Part shown: one piece after another, positions 19,095-64,000 of the stretch
Layout of the letters: the number at the start of each line of letters is the position of its first letter
How positions within the stretch are numbered: position 1 is the first letter of the stretch
NCBI RefSeq assembly: GCF_030994125.1
Contig: NZ_CP099917.1
Coordinates: 1,054,001 to 1,118,000, forward strand
Source of the DNA: Pseudoalteromonas xiamenensis
Lineage (GTDB): Bacteria > Pseudomonadota > Gammaproteobacteria > Enterobacterales > Alteromonadaceae
DNA: 64,000 nucleotides
Reading direction: 5' to 3'
Position numbers and translations under genes: made by a program
Notes under the pieces: model-generated
The model's input: only the letters and a program-made list of their open reading frames with translations
The model's database searches: none
What the model was told of the DNA's origin: nothing

Positions 19095-20598
19095 ATGCTT
19101 CATTTTCCTTCTAACATCAGACATTTCTTAATCTACTTCGGTTTTGCTGTGCTATCGATAGTAACAAGCAAATCAGCACTATCCAATGCCAATGCGGGAT
19201 TGGATCCACACACACTATTAGACAGCACCATCACTATGTTACAAAATCAACGTGATCAGGCTGTAAGTGATTACGTAGACACTTATTTTCATAAAGACGC
19301 ATTGGAGCGTTGGAATGGCGAAGGGCGTGAACGCTATATTGGGTGGTTAAGTGCAATAAAACACTACCACAAGACCTTTAGTTTGCATGAAGCGTTACCC
19401 TTTGATGAAAAACGTAATCGCGTAACAGCTAAAATACTTTCACAAAGCACTCGTATTATCTACACCCTGACAATTACGCTCACTCAAGTCCAATTAGCGT
19501 CATCCGATGATAGTAGCCTACCTTGGAAAGTATCTGGTATTTCTATAACGGCGGACAAGCCTGTCATCGACAGCACACTCCACTCACTGACAAAACAAGA
19601 ATTGGCAACCAAACTGGCGGAGTATGTTGATTTTATGATCAAAAACAACGCGTTCTCAGGCGCCCGTATTGTTGGCAGATAACGACACCATTTTGTACCA
19701 AAGTGCACATGGTTACGCTGAACAACGATTTCAAATTAAAAATAACGTCGACACACGCTTTAACATTGCGTCTTTGAATAAAATGTTTACCGCCGTTAGC
19801 GTATTGCAATTGGCTGAAGCGGGAAAACTATCCCTTCAAGATCCAATAACGAACTACATTGACCACACACTACTAGGTAATGGTGATTTTAGTGCGATTA
19901 CCATTGCTCATCTTTTATCTCACACTGCGGGATTAGGCTACCCAAATTACCCGAAAACCCACCCAAACGATTTACGAAACCTAAACGATTACCTACCGTA
20001 TCTGCGCTATATTCCTATTGTGAGTAAACCAGGGGAACAATTTCGCTATAGCAGTGAAGGGTTTATTTTGCTCGGTCTCATCATAGAAGCGGTATCCAAG
20101 CAACCTTATGATGATTACTTAAAACAACATGTCTTTACGAAGGCAGGTATGACACAAACAGGTAACTTTGATATCGATGGCGTCACACCCAATATAGCAA
20201 TGGGTTACTTTTATTCAAACGAGCTCAAGTCTATGCAAACTAATTGGTTTATTCACGGCATTAAAGGAAATTCCGCAGGTGGGGGTTACTCGAACGTTGC
20301 AGACTTATACGCCTTTTCAAAAGCGTTAACCCATAATCACTTGTTAACCAAAAAATACACCCGTCTCGCGTTTTCCGCTAAACCTGAATTTCATTCCGAC
20401 CATTATGGGTTTGGCTTTAGTGTACATCATAGCGATAGTGGCAAAGTGATTGGTCATAACGGTGCATTTATTGGCGTCGGTGCCGATCTTCGTGTTTATT
20501 TGGATAAAGGGATAACCGTCGTTGTACTCGGAAATCAGGATATGGTGACAACCCCAGTTATCACCTACGTGAATGAGCTTATGCGGCACGTGCAGTAA
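19095..20598 (+). pseudogene. Serine hydrolase (beta-lactamase family) with N-terminal extension, frameshifted
   Basis: It starts at ATG 19095 (AAAGG ribosome site) with a signal-like segment ending SKSALSNANA and then an NTF2-like region of about 130 residues. The first frame stops at 19682. The catalytic part continues in a second frame, with S-x-x-K in FNIASLNKMFTA, Y-S-S in FRYSSEGFILLGLI, and HNG in VIGHNGAFIGVG. Removing one base from CCC at 19662-19664 joins them as FSGAVLLADNDTILY, the classical start of this fold, giving about 500 residues. It is probably a secreted peptidase or esterase. The NTF2-like gene downstream may be related in function. Confidence 0.75.
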
Positions 20599-20736
20599 GT
20601 CACTCGTGTATTCGTGCTGGGTTTGTATACACCAAACAAACTCAGCACGCGTGTAATTAAGAACATTCGGCTATTACAAAAGGCAAACGCCGATAAAATA
20701 ACAAACAATCTATTTACAAAATTTTGGAGCGCTACT

Positions 20737-21186
20737 GTGTTAGTCCGTTATTCCGCCAGCCTTTTTGCGGCCTTGTTTATGAACATGGTATCTGCAAACC
20801 CTAAGACGACCGAAAATAAGGAAAATGACCTCACAGAACAACAAACTATTCATCTCGTTGATAAACAAATTGCAGCGTACAATGCGCGCGATATCGATGC
20901 CTTTGCGGCTACCTATCATGATGATGCAGAAATTTACGTCTATCCTAATCAGCTACTATTAAAAGGCAAAACCGCACTCATTGAACGCTATAAGCAGACA
21001 TTTACCGCACTGACCATGCTAAGAGCAACCTCAGTACAACGCATCGTCAAAGGTAATTACTTAGTTGACCTTGAACGAGCGGAATCATCAACACACCCCT
21101 CTCAAGAAGTCACCCGTCGCGTTGAGCTAATTGCCACCTACGAGATAGAAGATGGACTTATCAAACGAGTTACGTTCAAGCGTTAG
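20737..21186 (+). CDS. Secreted NTF2-like/SnoaL-like protein
   Basis: About 149 residues starting at GTG 20737, preceded by GGAG at 8 bp. The start gives a good signal peptide (LVRYSASLFAALFMNMVSAN). The mature domain is a cone-like alpha+beta barrel of the SnoaL/NTF2 class: VDKQIAAYNARDIDAFAATY, HDDAEIYVYPNQLLLKGK and a C-terminal ATYEIEDGLIKRVTF strand. Such proteins are small-molecule-binding or isomerase-like, and the substrate is unknown. It lies 138 bp after the serine hydrolase and may be co-transcribed with it. Confidence 0.7.
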   Translation: MLVRYSASLFAALFMNMVSANPKTTENKENDLTEQQTIHLVDKQIAAYNARDIDAFAATYHDDAEIYVYPNQLLLKGKTALIERYKQTFTALTMLRATSVQRIVKGNYLVDLERAESSTHPSQEVTRRVELIATYEIEDGLIKRVTFKR

Positions 21187-21289
21187 TCAAACCGATCTTG
21201 GCTAAACTACATTGACTGTTACGAATGGCTTTTTAATTGTTCAGTTTCAAGGTATGCTCTCAAGACATCTGACCAGTTGATTAACAAAA

Positions 21290-22327
21290 ATGAAAACACG
21301 CATCACTGAACTTTTTGGCATTGAAAAGCCGATTATCTTACCTGGTATGAGTTGGATCTCCGTACCTGAACTCGTCGCTGCGGTATCAAACGCAGGCGGT
21401 TTGGGTATTTTGGCAACTGGCCCTCTTAGCAAAGCGCAAACCAAAGATGCCATCGCGAAAATTCGCTCGCTAACGGACAAGCCATTTGGCGTAGGTGTTA
21501 CACTTATGATGCCGGGTGCAAAAGAAAATGCCAAAATAGCGCTTGAACTCGAAGTGCCTGTAATCAATTTCTCGCTGGGTAAAGGTGATTGGCTTGTTGA
21601 AGGCGCTAAGAAATACGGTGGTAAAGTTATAGCGACCGTTGTAACTGAAAAACATGCCTTGGCGGCACAAAAATCGGGGGTCGATGCATTACTTGTCACT
21701 GGCCATGAGGCCGCAGCCCATGGTGGTGATGTGACCTCTTTGTGTCTTGTCCCAAATATTGTGGACATTGTTGACATTCCTGTGATTGCCGCAGGCGGTT
21801 TTGCTGACAGTCGGGGCCTTGTCGCGGCACTCGCATTGGGGGCAGACGGCGTTGCAATGGGGTCGCGCTTTGCGACAAGCCTTGAAAGCCCTGTTCATCA
21901 AAACGTCAAAGATGCCGTCGTAGCAAAACGGGTTGAAGACACCATCTATTCCAAAAACTTTGATGGCCTATACGCACGAGTTATGAAAACACCGATGGCA
22001 GAAAAAGCCACTCGTAGGCCGATGAATATATTCGTAGCAATAGCGAAATCGTTTAAAGCCGCAAAAATGGTCGACATGCCACTTTGGAAGTTGATACTCG
22101 GCCTTTTCGCACAATTCGATAAAATAAAAATGTTGTCTTTGTTTGGTGCTGCGACGGAAAAACTAGAAGCCGCAACCATTCATGGTGATTTGGAACATGG
22201 CGTTCAATTTATAGGTCAATCTCAAGGTGTTATACACGATGTGCGCTCAGTACAGTCACTGATGGACAGTATGATGGAGGACGCCTTAAAACTTGTCGAT
22301 GTCCTCAATCTGAAAATCAAAAATTAA
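21290..22327 (+). CDS. Nitronate monooxygenase (2-nitropropane dioxygenase family)
   Basis: A 345-residue FMN-dependent TIM barrel. The start 'TRITELFGIEKPIILPGMSW' is typical, followed by SNAGGLGILATGPLS, the active-site loop GHEAAAHGGD, the phosphate-binding AAGGFADSRG, and LGADGVAMGSRF. It oxidises nitronates such as propionate-3-nitronate with O2; related enzymes also act as enoyl reductases, so the substrate is not certain. It stands alone and shares a bidirectional terminator with the next, convergent gene. Confidence 0.9.
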   Translation: MKTRITELFGIEKPIILPGMSWISVPELVAAVSNAGGLGILATGPLSKAQTKDAIAKIRSLTDKPFGVGVTLMMPGAKENAKIALELEVPVINFSLGKGDWLVEGAKKYGGKVIATVVTEKHALAAQKSGVDALLVTGHEAAAHGGDVTSLCLVPNIVDIVDIPVIAAGGFADSRGLVAALALGADGVAMGSRFATSLESPVHQNVKDAVVAKRVEDTIYSKNFDGLYARVMKTPMAEKATRRPMNIFVAIAKSFKAAKMVDMPLWKLILGLFAQFDKIKMLSLFGAATEKLEAATIHGDLEHGVQFIGQSQGVIHDVRSVQSLMDSMMEDALKLVDVLNLKIKN

Positions 22328-55248: not shown

Positions 55249-57384
55249 ATGACTCATCAAAGATTCAAGTTAAGCGCGCTATTTATTGCAACTTCAGCAA
55301 TTTTCTCCACTCCTACTTTTGCAGATGAAGCAAAGGATCAAGATATTGAGAAAATCGCGGTGCTTGGCGATAAACCAAGTAATTATTTAGGCATTGAAGC
55401 ACAGACTGCCTCCAAGCTTGGTATCGCAATTAAGGATACACCGCAATCCGTCCGAGTCGTGACTCGCGCCTTGATGGACGACTTTTCATTAGATGACGTA
55501 AATCAAGTACTTGAAACGACCCCAGGCATCTCGGTAGAAAAAATCGAAACGGATCGCACCTATTACAAAGCCAGAGGTTTCGATATCACCAATTTCCAAG
55601 TTGATGGTTTAGGTCTTCCACAAGAACGCGGTTCATTGCAAGGTACACTCGACACGGCAATCTACCAACGCGTAGAAGTTGTGATGGGCGCAAATGGCAT
55701 GATGACAGGCGCAGGCAATCCATCGGCCACCGTAAACTTTATCCGTAAACGCCCAACCGACAATGCCCAAGCAAGCCTATCACTCACGGTGGGCTCTTGG
55801 TCAAACCGTCGTATCGATGCCGATGTGTCTGGCCGCATTAATGACGCTGTCGCCGCGAGGGCTGTGGTTGTAAGTCAGGTTCGCGACTCCTATTTGGACC
55901 GTTATAGTGTTAACCGGAATGTGTTCTATGGCATCACCGAGTTTAATCTGTCAGAAGACACCACGTTAACCACGAGCATAACCTACCAAAAGAATGATGC
56001 GGATAGTCCTCTTTGGGGTGCCTTACCTCTTTTCGATTCAGAAGGTAACGCAACCAATTTAGACGTTTCAACATCCACTGCATCCAATTGGGCATTTTGG
56101 AACAACACATCCAAACAAGCCTTTGTAGAACTTGAACACTACCTTGGCGGTGATTGGACCCTTTTCGCGCGTTATGCACATGCGCAAACAGAGCAAGATT
56201 CAGAACTGTTCTATGTCTATGGCACACCTGATGCCAAAACGGGTTTGGGATTAACCGGTTATGCAAGTGACTATCAACTAGAAGACAAGCAAAACCTTTT
56301 TGATGTATACGCACAAGGCAGCTTCGATCTCTTTGGTCAGAACCACTTGATTGCAGCTGGCGCAAGCCAAGCCAAAATGGCCTACAACGAACAGTCTTTG
56401 TACGACTTTACAACAGGCAATGGTTTCCCTGCGATGCCAAACCTCAGCACGTGGGATGGTTATGCGCCGCGCCCCACACTTGTCGATGGTATAACTGGTT
56501 CACAAATTGATAGCCGTCAGCGCTCAGAGTATGTGTCTGTTCGCTTTTCCATTCGGGACGATTTGAAACTCCTTACTGGACTTCGCCATACGGATTGGGA
56601 AACAGTCGGAGCGGCGTATCAAGTCAACAAAGGACGTGAAGACAGTGACACCACTCACTATTTAGGGGCGATATATACTATTAATGAAGATTTAAACGTG
56701 TATGGCTCGTACACTGAAACCTTTGCTCCGCAATTTGAACAAGGCCTTGATGGCAATGCTCTTTCACCGATTGAAGGCGACACACGTGAAATAGGCTTAA
56801 AAACCGAGTTTTTCAACGATAACTTGATGTTGAACATCGCCCTTTTTGACGCTGAACAACTGAATATTGCCGTAGCCGACGTCGAAAATTCAACACCCGA
56901 CAATTCCGTTTACAAGGCAGCACCTGGTATTCAATCGAGAGGTTATGAAATTGAGCTCAGTGGTGATTTAGGGTTTGGCGTAAGTGCAAACCTCGGTTAC
57001 ACCTACACGAATATTGACGTTGCCGATTCCATTGATGCCGGCAACACAGAAGCTGAACTTGTTAAAAACTATACGCCCAAACAAGTATTTAAGCTTGCGG
57101 CTAAATACGATGTAGCGGCGTTAGAAGGGTTAACCTTTGGTATGAACATGCGTTGGCAAGATGACATCAGTCGCGTGCAAGTTCAATCACCCCGGGTTGT
57201 GACCGAGCAAAAGGCGTATGCCTTAGTCAATTTCATGGCGAGCTATCAAATTTCGCCAACGGTTGACCTTACGTTTAACGCGAACAATGTATTTGACAAA
57301 AAATACATTAACTCACTTTATTGGGCGCAAGGTTTCTATGGTGCACCACGTAATTATTCATTAACGCTTAATTGGGCACTGTAA
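55249..57384 (+). CDS. TonB-dependent siderophore receptor
   Basis: A 711-residue outer membrane receptor. A signal peptide (HQRFKLSALFIATSAIFSTP then TFA) precedes the plug domain (IKDTPQSVRVVTRALMDDFS, VNQVLETTPGISVEK, VEVVMGANGMMTGAGNPSAT, VNFIRKRP). A 22-strand barrel follows, ending NYSLTLNWAL. The pattern matches ferric-siderophore receptors of the FhuE/FpvA type. The exact ligand is not predictable. It lies upstream of a PepSY protein, as often seen when iron is released by reduction. Confidence 0.92.
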   Translation: MTHQRFKLSALFIATSAIFSTPTFADEAKDQDIEKIAVLGDKPSNYLGIEAQTASKLGIAIKDTPQSVRVVTRALMDDFSLDDVNQVLETTPGISVEKIETDRTYYKARGFDITNFQVDGLGLPQERGSLQGTLDTAIYQRVEVVMGANGMMTGAGNPSATVNFIRKRPTDNAQASLSLTVGSWSNRRIDADVSGRINDAVAARAVVVSQVRDSYLDRYSVNRNVFYGITEFNLSEDTTLTTSITYQKNDADSPLWGALPLFDSEGNATNLDVSTSTASNWAFWNNTSKQAFVELEHYLGGDWTLFARYAHAQTEQDSELFYVYGTPDAKTGLGLTGYASDYQLEDKQNLFDVYAQGSFDLFGQNHLIAAGASQAKMAYNEQSLYDFTTGNGFPAMPNLSTWDGYAPRPTLVDGITGSQIDSRQRSEYVSVRFSIRDDLKLLTGLRHTDWETVGAAYQVNKGREDSDTTHYLGAIYTINEDLNVYGSYTETFAPQFEQGLDGNALSPIEGDTREIGLKTEFFNDNLMLNIALFDAEQLNIAVADVENSTPDNSVYKAAPGIQSRGYEIELSGDLGFGVSANLGYTYTNIDVADSIDAGNTEAELVKNYTPKQVFKLAAKYDVAALEGLTFGMNMRWQDDISRVQVQSPRVVTEQKAYALVNFMASYQISPTVDLTFNANNVFDKKYINSLYWAQGFYGAPRNYSLTLNWAL

Positions 57385-57463
57385 TCGTGCCTTAGTTGCA
57401 CCGTATTTTGCGTGTTATGCCAATCACCGAACTCGGTGGTTGGCTTTTTAAGGACGTCACCGA

Positions 57464-58564
57464 ATGAAAAAAACACTGCACCTTTGGCACCGGTATTTGG
57501 GTCTTCTTGTTGCCATTCCTCTTTTAGTCATTTCCCTGACTGGCAGCGTACTTGTGTTCAAAGAAGAAATAGATCACTGGCTAATGCCCGAGTTGGCGAA
57601 AGTCGACGCACAAGTGGGTGCCCGCCTTCCCTACGACCAATTACGTACTTTGCTTACGAATCGGTTTCGACATTATGAAATTGGCAGCTGGGAAATCTTT
57701 GACGATGGACACACGGCTGACCGCATCTATCTGATAAAACACGGGACACTTGATTGGTATAAGGTCTATCTCGATCAATATCAGGGCACTGTCCGCTCAG
57801 AGCCCGTCCCCGTTAATTTCTATCTAACCGACTGGTTGCTAGACCTTCACTATAAATTTCTGATTGGTGAAACTGGACTTTGGATAACCGGAGTAGTCTC
57901 AATCATCTTATTGTTTATGGGCATTTCCGGACTCGTGATATATCGACAGTTTTGGAAAAAGTTCTTTAGTTTGCGGCTGAACGTAAAACGCACCGCATTT
58001 TTTAGCGATCTTCACAAGCTCACGGGCATTTGGTCAGCTCCTATCCTTTTTGTCCTCGGCTTTACCGGTGCGTATTGGAACATTTCGGAGATAATTCATC
58101 ATCAATTTGAGCATCATGATGAAGAGAAGGTGGTAACTGGGCCGCTATACAATCAAGCACTTTCACTCGATGCAATGGCAAAAAATGCGCAAACGCAAAT
58201 GGGGGGATTTAGAGCAACGTATTTACTTTTCCCATTTGAAGAAGGTCGTCAAATTACTTTCTTTGGTGAAGTCGGCAACATTGGCGTGCTTTCAAGTGAA
58301 TATTCATCGACCGTCACGTTCAACAAGGACACCGGAGCACTTGAACCGAACTTTGATATTCGCGAAGCACCTGTCTTTTTCACGGTGGTTGATAGCTTTC
58401 GGAAACTGCATTTTGGTTACTTTGCAGGGTTTCCCAGTAAAATGATTTGGTGCTTAATTGGATTAACACCTCTCATCTTTACGATTACTGGGTGTTACTT
58501 ATGGCTGAGACGCAGAAAGCCACAACAAAGTCGCAAGCAAGTGCCTTTATCAGCACAAATGTAA
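57464..58564 (+). CDS. PepSY-associated membrane protein (iron-uptake reductase-like)
   Basis: A 366-residue protein with four membrane helices. It starts LHLWHRYLGLLVAIPLLVIS (TM1 with His), followed by periplasmic PepSY-like domains, 'GLWITGVVSIILLFMGISGL', 'LHKLTGIWSAPILFVLGFTG' with conserved His, and a C-terminal GLTPLIFTITGCYLWLRRR. Proteins of this kind beside siderophore receptors are thought to reduce Fe(III) in the periplasm through heme-bound electron transfer. It lies 79 bp after the receptor and is probably in the same iron-controlled operon. Confidence 0.87.
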   Translation: MKKTLHLWHRYLGLLVAIPLLVISLTGSVLVFKEEIDHWLMPELAKVDAQVGARLPYDQLRTLLTNRFRHYEIGSWEIFDDGHTADRIYLIKHGTLDWYKVYLDQYQGTVRSEPVPVNFYLTDWLLDLHYKFLIGETGLWITGVVSIILLFMGISGLVIYRQFWKKFFSLRLNVKRTAFFSDLHKLTGIWSAPILFVLGFTGAYWNISEIIHHQFEHHDEEKVVTGPLYNQALSLDAMAKNAQTQMGGFRATYLLFPFEEGRQITFFGEVGNIGVLSSEYSSTVTFNKDTGALEPNFDIREAPVFFTVVDSFRKLHFGYFAGFPSKMIWCLIGLTPLIFTITGCYLWLRRRKPQQSRKQVPLSAQM

Positions 58565-58774: not shown

Positions 58775-58799
58775 CATTGTTTTAGGTAAGGTAACAATG
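58775..58799. promoter_or_regulatory. CATTGTT-N11-AACAATG inverted repeat upstream of HTH operon
   Basis: Perfect 7-bp arms at 58775-58781 and 58793-58799, 38 bp before the first HTH gene, in an A/T-rich promoter region. It is a candidate operator for the HTH proteins encoded downstream. The remainder of 58565-58774 holds no gene. Confidence 0.45.
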
Positions 58800-58836: not shown

Positions 58837-59139
58837 ATGCAATCACCCGAAGAGTATGAGGTCACACTTAGGATCCATACCATTATTAAAGAGCTGAAAG
58901 CCAGACGAGGCTATACCAAAAAGAAAATCAGTGAGCTGCTGGGGATTGGCTTAACCACGTTAGATGACCACCTCAATGGCACTAGTTCTTTTCGCTTAGG
59001 TACACTCATTAAATTTGCTCAGATTAGTCGCACACGTTTAGGCGACATTCTTGAAGGCACAAAAGAATTTGATCAGGAATTAAAAAAGGACACCCAACAT
59101 GAAGAAGCAATCGAACCTATCAAAAGCCAAAACTCTTAA
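58837..59139 (+). CDS. Stand-alone XRE-like HTH protein, unit 1 of the HTH-membrane locus
   Basis: A 100-residue protein consisting of one helix-turn-helix domain (about 8-80): EYEVTLRIHTIIKELKARRG, YTKKKISELLGIGLTTLDDH, LNGTSSFRLGTLIKFAQISR and a short charged tail. The same domain forms the N-terminus of the fused proteins at 59943 and 60842, so this copy has lost, or never had, the membrane part. That part is encoded separately at 59285. It starts at ATG 58837 after GAGGGAG. The next gene, a peptide, begins inside its 3' end. It probably binds the inverted repeat at 58775. Confidence 0.8.
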   Translation: MQSPEEYEVTLRIHTIIKELKARRGYTKKKISELLGIGLTTLDDHLNGTSSFRLGTLIKFAQISRTRLGDILEGTKEFDQELKKDTQHEEAIEPIKSQNS

Positions 59140-59269
59140 TAATCTCTTATCATCACAAGTATGTGGTGGTTCTGGCGGACACAAAGGTACAGATCCAGCG
59201 CAAGTAAATGCCCCCGTAATGGCTGAAATCCCAACGCCTCCGAAAGTAATAGATAAGTTAGGTCTTTAG
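59099..59269 (+). CDS. 56-aa peptide with Cys and GG motifs, possible secreted or signalling peptide precursor
   Basis: ATG 59099 follows AAAAAAGGA at 8 bp and overlaps the HTH gene by 41 bp in another frame; the stop is TAG at 59267-59269. Residues 1-21 (MKKQSNLSKAKTLNNLLSSQ plus V) form a charged, leader-like amphipathic segment. CGGSGGHKG follows, and then a proline/valine-rich tail (PVMAEIPTPPKVIDKLGL). The shape is that of a short peptide with a double-glycine-type leader (bacteriocin or RiPP precursor, or a pheromone), but no processing enzyme or exporter is encoded nearby. It is coupled by overlap and short spacing to the flanking HTH and membrane genes. No family is recognised; the function is inferred only from context. 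Confidence 0.6.
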   Translation: MKKQSNLSKAKTLNNLLSSQVCGGSGGHKGTDPAQVNAPVMAEIPTPPKVIDKLGL

Positions 59270-59284
59270 GCTTGGGAAGGATAT

Positions 59285-59923
59285 ATGAATTCACTGAAAA
59301 ATTTGATTTTACTGGCTATTATATTTGGAGCAATAGGCGCTACCTATCTTTACTCAGACTTGATTTTACTACCTTTTTTTATTTTACTTCTACTTCTGAT
59401 GGCTACATTCAACAAAGACGAATTTAACTTTACGTATTTAATAAAAGTAATTATTGCGTTCACTATAGTTGAATCACTCCTTGGCCTGACTATATTCAAG
59501 TTAATAACACACAAACCCGGCTTCATCCAGAACTCTATAATTTTCACCTCTCATTTGATAATTGACATACTAATCGCATATTTCATTTCAAATAGAAAAA
59601 GCATCTGCCTAAAATACATAAAAAACATTTCTATAGAAACTAAAAAGGAAATTTTTGAAAAATCTCTTCTTGATGCACCTCTATTAGGTGTCTATCTTCT
59701 ATTTTGCATAGTAGATACTTTAGCACTTTTAGAAAATCTTTTGAGGCATTTAGACAAAATTGGCTTTCCGGCTGAGGCGGCTAGTAAATTCAGTGATTTT
59801 CAATTTTTATATAATAATTATGAATATATAAAATACGCTTTACTATCATTAGTTTTACTTTTATTTATTTCTCTTTTCATTAGAAAAGCAACCTCAGGAT
59901 CTCAACTTCTACATCGGAGGTAG
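59285..59923 (+). CDS. Six-helix membrane protein, unit 1 of the HTH-membrane locus
   Basis: A 212-residue protein with GGAAGGA five bases before the ATG. About six membrane helices lie near residues 5-22, 25-42, 52-72, 84-102, 131-152 and 186-204. It is homologous to the C-terminal two-thirds of the proteins at 59943 and 60842. Shared blocks are GFIQNSIIFTSHLIIDI and FCIVDTLALLENLLRHLDKI. Unlike them it carries no HTH; its matching HTH is the separate gene at 58837. The coding sequence is notably A/T-rich. It may act as a membrane receptor or anchor for the HTH protein. No known family is recognised. Confidence 0.75.
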   Translation: MNSLKNLILLAIIFGAIGATYLYSDLILLPFFILLLLLMATFNKDEFNFTYLIKVIIAFTIVESLLGLTIFKLITHKPGFIQNSIIFTSHLIIDILIAYFISNRKSICLKYIKNISIETKKEIFEKSLLDAPLLGVYLLFCIVDTLALLENLLRHLDKIGFPAEAASKFSDFQFLYNNYEYIKYALLSLVLLLFISLFIRKATSGSQLLHRR

Positions 59924-59942
59924 ATTACAGAAAAAAACTGAA

Positions 59943-60836
59943 ATGCAAACCTGTGAAGAGCTAGAAGTCACACAGCGCGTTCGTGAGATAATCGATGAGC
60001 TTAAAGCAAGACGCGGTTACACCAAAAAGCGCGTGTGCGATTTATTGGGCATTGGTCAATCCACCTTAGATGATTATCTTAATGGTAAATCGTCTTTTAA
60101 ACTCGATACGTTGATCAAGCTCTCTCAAATTAGTCGCTTAAGTCTTTCTGATATCGTTGAAGGGACTAAAAATTATGACCGTCAATTGCACGAAACCAGC
60201 GATTTAAAAATCAAGCAACTTATCCGTAAAGGTATCGAGCTGAGCTTTATTGTTCTACTCGGTTCTATGATTGGGGCTAATTTCCTATTGCTAGTCATTC
60301 CTCTACTAGTCGTGTTTACCTTTTTATCAAGGAAGGAACCTCACGGCCAACTTTTCTCTGCGTTTATACTTATTCTTTCGGTTTTTGAATTAGGGTTAAC
60401 CATCCCTTTTGAACGATATATATATGGCCAGTATTCTTCTTTCATACAAAACAGCACGATATTCTCAATCCATTTACTAATGGATATCATTACGTTCGTT
60501 TGCATTCGTAATTACCAAACCATCTCTCTATTCATTTTGTATAGAAAGCCTTTAAAGGAACGACTTGTGTACTTCAATACAAGCAGCATACTCAGCCCAC
60601 TCCTTTTTACTTATCTTATTTTTTGTCTTACCGACGCTATCGCATTAGCAGAAAATTTGATCCGACATTTAGACAAAATCGGCATTAATGACTCTTTTGC
60701 AGCTCGATTTTCCCATTGGACTTTCTGGTTCCATCACTATCCAGAGATAAAAACAACGTTAGTCTGTTTTGTTCTTTTCTTACTGTATAGTAATTTGATG
60801 CTTCATCGCTCGCCCAAAACAATCTCATTAAGTTAA
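59943..60836 (+). CDS. HTH-membrane fusion protein, unit 2
   Basis: A 297-residue protein. The N-terminal HTH (about 8-80) has GYTKKRVCDLLGIGQSTLDD and NGKSSFKLDTLIKLSQISRL, followed by a linker of about 20 residues. Six membrane helices run from about 100 to 290. Conserved blocks in the membrane part are SSFIQNSTIFSIHLLMDI and FCLTDAIALAENLIRHLDKI. Cytoplasmic DNA binding by a membrane-anchored protein is expected. It starts 19 bp after unit 1, with only a weak ribosome site, so translation may depend on upstream ribosomes. The family is unknown to me. Confidence 0.78.
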   Translation: MQTCEELEVTQRVREIIDELKARRGYTKKRVCDLLGIGQSTLDDYLNGKSSFKLDTLIKLSQISRLSLSDIVEGTKNYDRQLHETSDLKIKQLIRKGIELSFIVLLGSMIGANFLLLVIPLLVVFTFLSRKEPHGQLFSAFILILSVFELGLTIPFERYIYGQYSSFIQNSTIFSIHLLMDIITFVCIRNYQTISLFILYRKPLKERLVYFNTSSILSPLLFTYLIFCLTDAIALAENLIRHLDKIGINDSFAARFSHWTFWFHHYPEIKTTLVCFVLFLLYSNLMLHRSPKTISLS

Positions 60837-60841
60837 TCACC

Positions 60842-61735
60842 ATGCAAATCCCGGAAGAAATTGAAGTCACACAACGTGTTAGAGAAATTATTGATAACTT
60901 AAAAGCCAAACGCGGCTACACGAAGAAACGTGTGTGTGATTTGTTGGGGATTGGTCAATCCACCTTAGACGATTATCTTAATGGCAAGTCGTCTTTTAAA
61001 CTCGATACGTTGATCAAGCTATCGCAAATTAGTCGTTTAAGTCTTTCGGAGATCGTTGAAGGGACAAAAGAGTATGATTATCAACTGAAGACGTCTGAAG
61101 AGTTCAAACTGAAGGAGATTGCACGTAAGGGAATAGAACTTAGTTTAATTATTCTCGTTGCAATGTCTTCTGGCGTTTACTACCTAAGCTTTTTTGTCCT
61201 TGCGCTAATCGCGGTTTATTTTTTATCTAAAAAATCCTTAGGATCACAGTTTATTATTTTAACAATTGTCGCATCTACAATTATTGAACTGGGGTTTACT
61301 ATCCCATTCAAGCTATTCATATACAATCAATATTCAGGATATTTCCAGAACAATACTATATACTCCATACACTTAATAATGGATTCAATTACTCTTACCT
61401 GCATTTGGAATTACCAAACTCTTGCATGCTATTTTCATAAATCTAGATCGTTAAAAGAAATACTGTCTCTTTTTGACAAATGCCATATTCACGCCCCGAT
61501 GATAGTAGTCTATTTTGCTTTTTGCTTTGTCGACATTGCAGCTATTGTAGAAAATCAAATCCGAAATATGGAAAGACTTGGGCTTGACGAAACGTTGGCC
61601 TCTCAGTTTTATCATTGGCAATTTATTTACGACTACTATGCAACTGTCAAAGTTACGCTGATTTGTTGCACGGCTTTTTTACTCATCAGTAACCTGTCCA
61701 TTATTAAATCAACTCAAAAGCGAGCCTCTGCGTAA
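60842..61735 (+). CDS. HTH-membrane fusion protein, unit 3
   Basis: A 297-residue paralogue of unit 2, starting 5 bp after it. The HTH half is almost identical to unit 2 (GYTKKRVCDLLGIGQSTLDD, NGKSSFKLDTLIKLSQISRL). The membrane half is clearly diverged but keeps SGYFQNNTIYSIHLIMDS and FCFVDIAAIVENQIRNM. This suggests a shared DNA target with different membrane signals or partners. A hairpin, a small ORF and a strong terminator follow. Confidence 0.78.
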   Translation: MQIPEEIEVTQRVREIIDNLKAKRGYTKKRVCDLLGIGQSTLDDYLNGKSSFKLDTLIKLSQISRLSLSEIVEGTKEYDYQLKTSEEFKLKEIARKGIELSLIILVAMSSGVYYLSFFVLALIAVYFLSKKSLGSQFIILTIVASTIIELGFTIPFKLFIYNQYSGYFQNNTIYSIHLIMDSITLTCIWNYQTLACYFHKSRSLKEILSLFDKCHIHAPMIVVYFAFCFVDIAAIVENQIRNMERLGLDETLASQFYHWQFIYDYYATVKVTLICCTAFLLISNLSIIKSTQKRASA

Positions 61736-61751
61736 GCAGTACCCATAGTCA

Positions 61752-61773
61752 GCTGGTGCAATTTTGCACCAGC
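61752..61773. terminator. Perfect hairpin after HTH-membrane unit 3
   Basis: A 9-bp GC-rich stem (61752-61760 with 61765-61773) and an ATTT loop. No T tract follows, so it may be a weak terminator, attenuator or RNA-stability element between the main operon and the small ORF at 61862. Confidence 0.45.
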
Positions 61774-61861
61774 GAGATTCAAAAACACTCCACGACGAAC
61801 CTGAATGTCTTTGTTAATTTGTATTTGGCGACTACAGAACAACAATCGGGAGACTACAACA

Positions 61862-61984
61862 ATGAGTTTGCTTCTTAAAATAACATCTGCAATTACGGTA
61901 TTAATATGGAGCACGACAACGCGATGTGCTGAATCAGAAAAGCAAGCAATTGCCTCGCTGTTTACCAACTATATGGCTAAATAG
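61862..61984 (+). CDS. 40-aa small ORF with signal-like N-terminus
   Basis: ATG 61862 follows GGGAG at 9 bp; the stop is TAG at 61982-61984. The first 20 residues (SLLLKITSAITVLIWSTTTR) look like a signal or membrane segment, followed by a Cys and a charged tail ending SLFTNYMAK. It is placed between two hairpins, the second only 10 bp after its stop, which supports a real transcript. It could be a second secreted peptide of the locus or a chance ORF. Confidence 0.4.
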   Translation: MSLLLKITSAITVLIWSTTTRCAESEKQAIASLFTNYMAK

Positions 61985-62053: not shown

Positions 62054-63337
62054 CTAACCCATTAATTCTGTCTCATGCTGACTTTCGCGCTCCAAAGGCA
62101 TAAAGAACCAGCATAAAATCCAGACGTAAAAAAACCTCAATAGGCTTAGGATTTTTCTCAAGTTTTGCCCGACACCCGCGAAGATTGCGTTTAATTTATC
62201 GCCCAATATGCCTCTCAAGCGGTTTAATCCCAAGTGGCCATCATTTTTCATGTGTCCGATGATGGGTTCTATGCCATTGCAGCGCTTGAGTTTTTTCTTA
62301 CTCGCAGGTGTCACGCCGCGTTTTTGACCTGCAATAAAGACCTCGTAGCGCTCTGCCATATGACCCCGATAACCTCGGTCTACAAAGCAGGTAAACGGAT
62401 GCACGTTGGCGACGTCTTCGACTATCCTCAAGGTGCGATACAAGGTGTCACCGTCATAAGGGTTACCGTGCATCGCATGACAGCACTGTATAAACTGTTC
62501 TTTCACCGTCGTTGCCACGCTGACCTTCACCCCAAACTCGTACGGTTTTGCACTTTTGCCTTTTGCTATGCATTCAACGTGTGGCTCATGCAGTGAGTAC
62601 AGCTTCGATTTACTGAATTTATCTTGTTTTAACAGTGTTTCAGCTTGCCGGAGTTGAACGACCATCGCCGCTGAAGGGTCGGTATCTAACTTACGAAGAA
62701 TGTCGCGGAACACACGGCCAAGATACGACTTTTGTTTTTTCAACGCCTTACGCATCCGCTTGTATTGTTTGGCATACGCATAGCGACTGACTGAGTTTGC
62801 GACCTTCACACCTGCTCTCGCATAGCTTTGTCGCAGTGTGATACCTGCGTGTTTGGCAAGGTCGACTAGTTTTTTCCAGCATCGTTCAAGCAGTTTACTG
62901 TCGGTTGGAAAGCTGATGTTCTTGTCCATCACGGTGCTATCCACCACCACTTCGCGCAAACTACTTTCTTTTACCGCGCCGACTTTTAGTCCGACATCGA
63001 CGGTGAGCGACAACATTAATTCCGTACCTTGCTCGCCAATTCGCTTGCAAAAACGCACCATAGAACTTGGGTCACACGGCATATGATGGGTAAAAAACTG
63101 CATCCCAAAAAAATACTGCCAATAGGGATTTTCACACCACATGGCGACGGCTTTTTCATCCGAAAGCTTATGAATTTGTTTAAGATATTCCAATCCAGCC
63201 AGTAATCGAATCGGTTTTCCCAACGCGCCACTATCTGCACTGTAAAGTTGACCAAATTCGGCTTCTAAACGCTGCCAATCAATGGTGTGGGCCAACTTAA
63301 CGAGTTCATGGTTACAAAGAATCATTGAACATCTCAC
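62054..63337 (-). mobile_element. IS5-like transposase gene
   Basis: An intact 427-residue DDE transposase. The N-terminal domain has NHELVKLAHTIDWQRLEAEF and GKPIRLLAGLEYLKQIHKLS, followed by CENPYWQYFFGMQFF. The catalytic acids are in VVVDSTVMDKN, CFVDRGYRG and GIEPIIGHMKND. It resembles the IS5/IS4-superfamily group. I could not define terminal inverted repeats or a target duplication. Left (near 62034) and right (near 63405) candidates match only weakly, so the element's ends are open. It lies between the HTH-membrane locus and the HipB-like gene. Confidence 0.88.
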
Positions 63338-63720: not shown

Positions 63721-63722
63721 AG

Positions 63723-63862
63723 GGATAATTATCCATATTAAAGCGCGTTTAACAGGATAATTATCCCTAGACAAAGCAGTAAGCTTAAAACTCAAACTTG
63801 AATAACTTTATTTTTAAGGGATAATTATCCGCATTAATGGGCAATTAACGGGATAATAATCC
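63723..63862. promoter_or_regulatory. Four GGATAATTATCC operators upstream of a HipB-like gene
   Basis: GGATAATTATCC occurs at 63723-63734, 63755-63766 and 63819-63830, with a one-base variant (GGATAATAATCC) at 63851-63862. Starts differ by 32, 64 and 32 bp, so all lie on a 32-bp grid with one vacancy at 63787. A promoter fits the third copy: TTGAAT (63798-63803), 16 bp, GATAAT (63820-63825). The TATCC and GGATA half-sites are those known for E. coli HipB operators, although their spacing here differs. Confidence 0.6.
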
Positions 63863-63876
63863 CTAGTGAGTTAAGC

Positions 63877-64000
63877 ATGACAAGTGTAGCAGGCCACAAA
63901 AAGCTGTTTCCAAAGCAAAAGAAGATCCTTACTACGTTTGGTGAAGACTTATTTCTCGCCATGAAACGCCGAGAATTCACCAAGTCATTGGTAGCAGAGC
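63877..64000 (+). CDS. HipB-like XRE-family antitoxin, partial (runs off the window)
   Basis: The first 41 residues are visible: MTSVAGHKKLFPKQKKILTT then FGEDLFLAMKRREFTKSLVAE. The pattern KLFPKQ..IL...GE...LA..RR....VAE is typical of XRE-type antitoxins found with HipA-like kinases. Operators with TATCC/GGATA half-sites directly upstream support this. The rest of the HTH and any toxin gene lie beyond the window, so the assignment is provisional. Confidence 0.5.
   Translation, partial: MTSVAGHKKLFPKQKKILTTFGEDLFLAMKRREFTKSLVAE

Follow-up and report, generated by a model that had tools for sequence, protein, structure and literature searches.

A candidate peptide signalling cassette combining XRE-type regulators with a six-helix membrane protein family in Pseudoalteromonas

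Peptide pherotypes are characteristic of Gram-positive bacteria, and peptides of the ComC type carry a double-glycine (GG) leader. The receptors of the RRNPP group are cytosolic tetratricopeptide repeat (TPR) proteins that bind re-imported peptides, while the membrane-tethered regulators ToxR and CadC have a winged-helix DNA-binding domain. In the main text of a survey of transmembrane transcription regulators, the terms 'HTH_3', 'XRE' and 'multiple transmembrane' do not occur (PMC10269533). Here we describe a gene cassette from Pseudoalteromonas xiamenensis, located in a 64,000-nucleotide stretch of contig NZ_CP099917.1 (positions 1,054,001 to 1,118,000; hereafter the window), in which an XRE-type helix-turn-helix (HTH) gene, a small peptide gene and a gene for a six-helix membrane protein follow one another. 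The peptide and the membrane protein appear to be swapped jointly between related loci, as would be expected of a signal and its receptor, and this suggests a new peptide signalling system. With a confidence slightly better than even, we read the cassette as encoding a polymorphic, pherotype-like exported peptide signal, a six-helix membrane receptor and an XRE-type regulator as its output.

The organization of the cassette is summarized in Table 1. Open reading frame (ORF) calls reproduced the five co-directional genes of a sequence-only reading of this DNA, with gaps of 15 nt between the peptide gene and TM1, 19 nt between TM1 and U2 and 5 nt between U2 and U3, and with a 41-nt overlap of HTH1 and the peptide gene in different frames. 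That reading had described U2 and U3 as XRE-like HTH domains fused to a membrane domain of about six helices, and the first unit as the same two parts in separate genes with a 56-residue peptide gene between them; Pfam HTH_3 matches and a structure model of U2 agree with the former description, and the ORFs with the latter. The HTH parts of the cassette proteins exceed the Pfam cut-off for HTH_3/HTH_26. An AlphaFold2 model of U2 (predicted local distance difference test score, pLDDT, 87.0) contains a lambda-repressor-like HTH and approximately six membrane helices, counted by eye; the model of TM1 reached a pLDDT of 89.1. U2 (by model) and U3 (by homology) thus carry a DNA-binding domain and a membrane segment in a single chain, and HTH1 and TM1 are the split arrangement. 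Over 78 residues, HTH identity is 91% between U2 and U3, 67% between HTH1 and U2 and 65% between HTH1 and U3. For the membrane parts the values are 38% (TM1-U2), 35% (TM1-U3) and 40% (U2-U3), and the BLAST match between the U2 and U3 genes is restricted to their first 236 nt. The span originally proposed extended to 61984 and so took in a small ORF after U3 (61844-61984; 46 aa, with a signal-peptide-like start) that falls outside the cassette pattern; among the loci compared, it occurs elsewhere only in the duplicate copy of the window.

Table 1. Features of the cassette, in window positions
Feature	Position	Strand	Description and basis
HTH1, stand-alone XRE/Cro-CI-type protein (type A)	58837-59139	+	100 aa; HTH_26 30.6 bits, HTH_3 23.7 bits
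Precursor peptide (putative)	59099-59269	+	56 aa; ORF call, alignment with 12 family peptides
TM1, stand-alone six-helix membrane protein, predicted receptor	59285-59923	+	212 aa; family alignment, model
U2, HTH (residues ~1-78) and six-helix membrane domain (~93-290)	59943-60836	+	297 aa; Pfam, model
U3, second HTH-membrane fusion	60842-61735	+	297 aa; Pfam, homology to U2
Operator-like palindrome, CATTGTT-N11-AACAATG (putative function)	58775-58799	.	37 nt before the HTH1 start codon

The arrangement is not a chance one, since dozens of Pseudoalteromonas loci carry the same triplet of genes. We fetched 79 loci, counting orthologous loci of different species separately and allowing one genome to give two; they hold 74 ORFs for a membrane protein alone (counted if at least 150 aa; membrane-only ORFs) and 44 HTH-membrane fusions. 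An HTH gene lies within 1.5 kb upstream on the same strand of 70 of the 74 membrane-only ORFs, and 48 of the 74 have both this gene and a short ORF matching a fixed core pattern. By eye we added 15 further GG-like short ORFs, including that of the window itself, which the core pattern misses and which have GG, AG, GA or GS ahead of a K- and P-rich stretch; homologous neighbourhoods therefore contain a short peptide ORF repeatedly, at up to 63 of 74 membrane-only genes, as anticipated from the single locus. The core pattern is a loose one, which also precedes 47 of 403 other ATG-initiated ORFs (at least 150 aa) and 432 of the 5000 points drawn at random. The corresponding counts for a strict GG-leader pattern, which requires L at -12, hydrophobic residues at -7 and -4, and GG, were 24 of the 74 genes, 10 of the 403 other ORFs and 44 of the 5000 random points. 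The fusions carry HTH domains of two families, type A in 40 and type B4 in four (two in L146, and a single one in both L148 and L150); the joining of HTH and membrane domain therefore probably arose at least twice. HTH genes were also the neighbour family most widely shared across non-orthologous loci; kinase-like, regulator-like and ABC (ATP-binding cassette)-transporter families recur in fewer, four to five, locus types. The kinase- and regulator-like families were found in 14-15 of the fetched loci, mostly of types C and B3, with the regulator of L130 about 4 kb from the membrane-protein gene, and we judged these neighbours and the transporters to be generic rather than parts of the cassette. 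A 141-aa ORF in L143 (6604-7029) combines a shortened GDDL-type HTH start with a partial membrane domain; it is perhaps a deletion product and was not counted as a fusion.

The peptide of the window has a predicted leader of the double-glycine type in residues 1-24 (59099-59170), with L at position -12, V at -4 and GG at -2/-1, and its predicted core, residues 25-56, begins SGGHKGTDP. An AAGGA-type ribosome site lies 8 nt before its ATG. Across 13 aligned peptides GG is invariant, L(-12) nearly so, and position -4 is V or I. The precursors are mostly about 40-100 aa long, with cores near GG(S/T)xGxKxDDP(R/K) or, in other groups, AGxTxGKGSGPRQQ and GGxxAxKPPR; some contain tandem cores, with seven GG-core segments in L037 (counted by eye) and four in L115. 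Median omega values in six groups, from which many pairs with saturated synonymous divergence were excluded, were 0.18-0.64 for the peptide, 0.08-0.17 for the membrane protein and 0.01-0.16 for the HTH, and the peptide frames thus look constrained; in one close pair (L036/L099) the peptide omega was 2.72, with very few changes. A profile of the membrane domain matched 45 of 108 Pseudoalteromonas genomes, up to 12 times in each. A peptide profile gave 32 matches below 1e-6 in 12 of the 108, all 32 within about 1 kb upstream of a membrane-domain match when the listings were compared by eye; at least 14 of these were used to build the profile or are the duplicate copy, and eight of the 12 genomes supplied sequences for it. 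At E<=0.01 the peptide profile matched 29 genomes, all positive for the membrane domain. In 17 of the 29 no match is better than 1e-6, and in just two of these 17 (G079 and G130) do the matches coincide with a listed membrane-domain match; since the weaker matches mostly lie away from listed loci, the 29-of-29 figure was not used as evidence.

Allele replacement was apparent from comparison of six pairs of type A arrays in 100-nt bins. DNA identity was 90-100% from 1100 to 100 nt before the membrane-protein gene. In five of the six pairs it then fell to 49-83% over a stretch that begins in the second half of the peptide gene and runs beyond the membrane-protein gene to about 800 nt, and it was back at 87-97% in the following bin; the sixth pair (L034/L116) has one common allele, 95-100% identical. 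The membrane part of the next fusion formed a second low-identity island in four of the six. Median identities of HTH and membrane protein were 97 and 66% in type A, 96 and 53% in B2, 94.5 and 61% in Bm, 99 and 82% in B3 and 94 and 75% in C. Within P. xiamenensis, a relative of TM1 (P0015) is 53% identical to TM1, and a relative of U2 (P0001) is 93% identical to U2. Type Bm is largely syntenic: a flanking gene that we take to be thioesterase-like is present at eight of nine loci with a median identity of 98%. Here L102 and L113 have an identical peptide and near-identical membrane proteins (100% when rounded; non-synonymous divergence, dN, 0.002), while L041 and L102, whose flank proteins are 100% (rounded) and HTHs 99% identical, have membrane proteins only 55% identical, which looks like exchange of a joint peptide and membrane-protein allele. 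Taken from these alignments, the peptide core and the membrane protein appear to be replaced as one allele between conserved flanks. Core and membrane-protein similarity were correlated in types Bm (rho 0.87), B2 (0.67) and B2x (0.95); of 5000 permutations, 0, 6 and 82 gave values as high. Once near-identical membrane proteins were removed, the correlations were 0.77, 0.60 and 0.95 (32, 141 and 93 of 5000). The permutation test covered types A, Bm, B2, B2x and C; types D and E had too few members, and in B4 rho was 0.01 with automatic core extraction. L112, L131 and L046 have additional peptide ORFs next to the current pair, and L131 also has truncated membrane-protein ORFs, which suggests that peptide and membrane-protein pairs may have been replaced repeatedly.

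The P. xiamenensis genome encodes two ABC transporters with a C39 peptidase domain, each with an HlyD neighbour and about 1 Mb from the cassette. A C39 match was present in all 45 genomes positive for the membrane domain and in 36 of the 63 negative ones; at E<=1e-30 the counts were 45 of 45 compared with 19 of 63, and a post hoc cut-off of E<=2e-34 gave 45 of 45 compared with 9 of 63. These genomes are related and not independent, so P values for the co-occurrence are too strong.

On the reading that we favour, the small gene would be translated into a precursor with a double-glycine-type leader, and a C39-peptidase ABC exporter encoded elsewhere would cut after GG and export the short, polar core. 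The six-helix protein would be an inner-membrane protein with a cytoplasmic N terminus, and its variable helix 1-3 region, together with a conserved periplasmic loop (ENxxRNLE...G..E..AK.FW), would bind the cognate peptide. Binding would alter the XRE-type protein, either the partner encoded upstream (HTH1) or the HTH fused at the N terminus (U2 and U3), which would then switch its own operon and possibly other genes. Its fusion to HTH domains favours a regulatory role for the membrane domain. The sequence-only reading had assigned the peptide the role of signal or cargo and the membrane HTH proteins that of sensor and controller of the operon. This interpretation is supported in part: joint exchange, and co-variation in three of five locus types, would be expected of a signal and its sensor. 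The operator-like palindrome is real but lacks convincing further sites in the genome.

Several results weigh against a pherotype-like system. The window's own peptide (in the duplicate copy, L009) matches the loose leader pattern and fails the strict one, having S at -7, and at 11 of the 74 membrane-only loci a peptide could not be recognised. Five of these 11 belong to one P. luteoviolacea-like group (L048, L049 and L127-L129); the others are a broken fusion (L010), a locus at a contig edge (L123), L107, L111, and L043 and L122, which are two copies of one allele. Type B4 shows no contrast between HTH and membrane protein (68 and 64%), the correlation of core and membrane protein is weak in type C (0.55; 474 of 5000 permutations), and no co-variation was found in type A, to which the window cassette belongs (rho 0.03; 2189 of 5000). 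The low identity in the middle of the loci could also reflect old alleles whose HTH genes were homogenised by gene conversion. Co-occurrence with C39 transporters may reflect shared ancestry, and among the matches listed the C39 gene nearest to a membrane-protein gene on one contig is about 26 kb away (G076). Lastly, the palindrome defines no regulon: exact copies in the genome are those of the two duplicated cassettes, and a genome scan allowing up to one mismatch gave five sites, two of them in the duplicated cassette, compared with two for the reversed control. The same 7-N11-7 geometry (GTTTGTT-N11-AACAAAC) precedes the type A HTH gene of L134. Consensus promoters were at shuffle level (12 compared with 11.2).

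Joint polymorphism of peptide and membrane protein would also be expected of a bacteriocin or microcin and its immunity protein. In this main rival, the GG peptide is antimicrobial, the stand-alone membrane protein protects the producer, the HTH protein regulates, and the fusions are derivatives that act as sensors or as orphan immunity proteins. Class II microcins and bacteriocins typically have GG leaders and C39 exporters, the joint swapping and the co-variation in three types fit equally, and the extra peptides (L112, L131 and L046) and truncated membrane proteins (L131) recall displaced toxin-immunity arrays. However, a membrane protein that has an HTH partner at 70 of the 74 loci, and whose domain also occurs fused to HTHs of two families, looks more like part of a regulator, and the cores are short and polar and often contain K..P(R/K) across species, unlike membrane-active bacteriocins. 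We consider this explanation unlikely; an immunity role of the stand-alone membrane protein could also coexist with signalling.

The apparent absence of a C39-type exporter from the families that recur beside the cassettes, and of a GG-like peptide from the 11 loci listed above, would instead suit an unexported peptide that acts inside the cell as an adaptor or anti-repressor linking the HTH protein to a membrane protein that senses another stimulus. The leader, with L(-12), a hydrophobic residue at -4 and GG, the tandem multi-core precursors and the presence of C39 transporters in 45 of 45 genomes make this improbable.

The proposed receptor belongs to a membrane protein family without a match in Pfam, NCBIfam, PHROG or PADLOC and without a clear one in the PDB. 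Among 30 family members no TPR and no other consistent Pfam match was detected, and with PADLOC anti-phage models the HTH part alone gave matches, all of them weak (E 7e-4 or worse), and the peptide and TM1 gave none. The possibility, raised at the outset, that the membrane domain might turn out to be that of a known enzyme or transporter family thus found no support in the libraries searched. With U2 as query, nine of 60 relatives' genomes matched, all of the same genus. In draws at order and class level, which scored up to eight candidates per genome, profile A1 matched 4 of 345 genomes of the order, and profile A3 matched 5 of 394 at order and 1 of 369 at class level; outside the genus these searches gave three partial matches and no others (E 6.6e-4 to 8.3e-4, in ORFs of 367-423 codons), which we took as chance. 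An alignment scan of a named genome collection gave 12 loci, all in Pseudoalteromonas, and a single-protein scan of that collection gave no match. Protein searches returned 4 and 14 relatives, and the named ones (three of four and eight of 14) are all from this genus. Those close relatives of U2 that carry an organism name belong to P. xiamenensis, and the named genomes behind the loci include P. sp. HM-SA03, P. piscicida, P. peptidolytica, P. flavipulchra and others of the genus. Among the genomes sampled, the family was found convincingly nowhere outside Pseudoalteromonas, to which it appears confined. A patchy distribution, up to 12 membrane-domain matches in a genome and the transposase-like gene (62054-63337) that adjoins the window cassette could point to selfish or mobile regulator genes spread by recombination, with incidental small ORFs and no dedicated peptide signal, an explanation made very improbable by median peptide omega values below 1, by a motif common to non-orthologous loci and by the lack of viral relatives in one pattern scan of IMG/VR.

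The genome comprises 4.6 Mb in two contigs, and the cassette is present twice, inside a larger duplication. Window positions 40567-64000 have a second copy at C1:985000-1008432 (99.8-100% identical), extending at least 4.5 kb beyond the window, which reflects either a large duplication or an artefact of assembly. Window 20000-21500 has a further match at C1:964434, and window 1-1500 matches C1:1178474 instead. Just upstream of the cassette on the same strand (55249-58564) are genes for a TonB-dependent receptor and a PepSY_TM protein, probably unrelated to it. Downstream, at 63721-63864, two pairs of operator-like repeats (AGGGATAATTATCC / GGATAATTATCCCT, 20 nt apart) directly precede an ORF starting at 63877. 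At other loci (L034, L039, L093, L097, L101, L104, L112, L116 and L120), a common box near CTTGTCTTTATATTWAACNNNATGTAANNTTTNGGTTAA, recognised by eye with single-base variants, lies upstream of HTH or fusion genes; it precedes up to three genes per array and is a candidate operator. Elsewhere in the genome, a C39 exporter locus (G000:C1:2156000-2180000; L174 and L175) encodes two LanC-like proteins, HlyD partners and at least 10 short GG-leader ORFs of several families, some in near-identical tandem copies, and is a possible ribosomally synthesized and post-translationally modified peptide (RiPP) or peptide export island. An ORF in L174 (17914-18273) consists of a simple tandem repeat of CLFVCLSV / CLSVYLFI units and is possibly a phase-variable or non-coding repeat.

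If the signalling reading is correct, peptide-based cell-cell recognition becomes testable in a tractable genus of marine Gammaproteobacteria, and the natural allele swaps could be used for specificity mapping. What would be new is an undescribed membrane protein family with a one-component output and a new family of precursor peptides; should the peptide prove to be a bacteriocin, the family would be a new bacteriocin-immunity family instead. We give about even chances to the wider proposition of a Gram-negative pheromone system with its own receptor family wired to an XRE domain, in which pherotype cassettes would be swapped between species and each genome would hold several orphan receptors. 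Among the literature matches listed on Pseudoalteromonas, Gram-negative GG peptides, pherotypes and membrane-bound one-component regulators, titles and abstract openings held no account of this system; subscription literature was mostly outside this scope.

Each of the closest described systems has part of the cassette's design. With class II microcin and bacteriocin systems that use C39 transporters (peptidase-containing ATP-binding cassette transporters, PCATs), it has in common a putative GG-leader precursor, a predicted C39 transporter and a polymorphic peptide with a membrane partner, but the core is short and polar, the transporter is outside the cluster and an HTH is fused to the membrane protein. 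PlcR, ComR and PrgX of the RRNPP group couple XRE HTH regulators to signalling peptides, as the cassette would, and a Foldseek search with the U2 model lists all three, with TM-scores of about 0.2 and root-mean-square deviations of 16-22; in place of TPRs, however, the C-terminal domain of the fusion proteins is a membrane-embedded, hydrophobic helical bundle. Like ToxR, CadC and TcpP, the fusions would be one-component, membrane-tethered regulators with a cytoplasmic N-terminal DNA-binding domain. The OmpR-type winged HTH of ToxR/CadC-like regulators is absent from the cassette HTHs, which are of the XRE/lambda-repressor type, and the cassette further differs from ToxR and CadC in having about six helices, no large periplasmic domain and an adjacent peptide gene. 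General searches turned up no homology to the Gram-positive pherotype systems, with which no direct comparison was made, and library scans of the window cassette proteins found no kinase or receiver domain. The likeness to ComC/ComD, ComX/ComP and AgrD/AgrC is one of design, a polymorphic short peptide, predicted to be exported, and a putative polytopic sensor, both apparently swapped between conserved flanks; unlike ComCDE, agr and ComQXP, the cassette has a Gram-negative host and would deliver its output through an XRE HTH, fused or adjacent.

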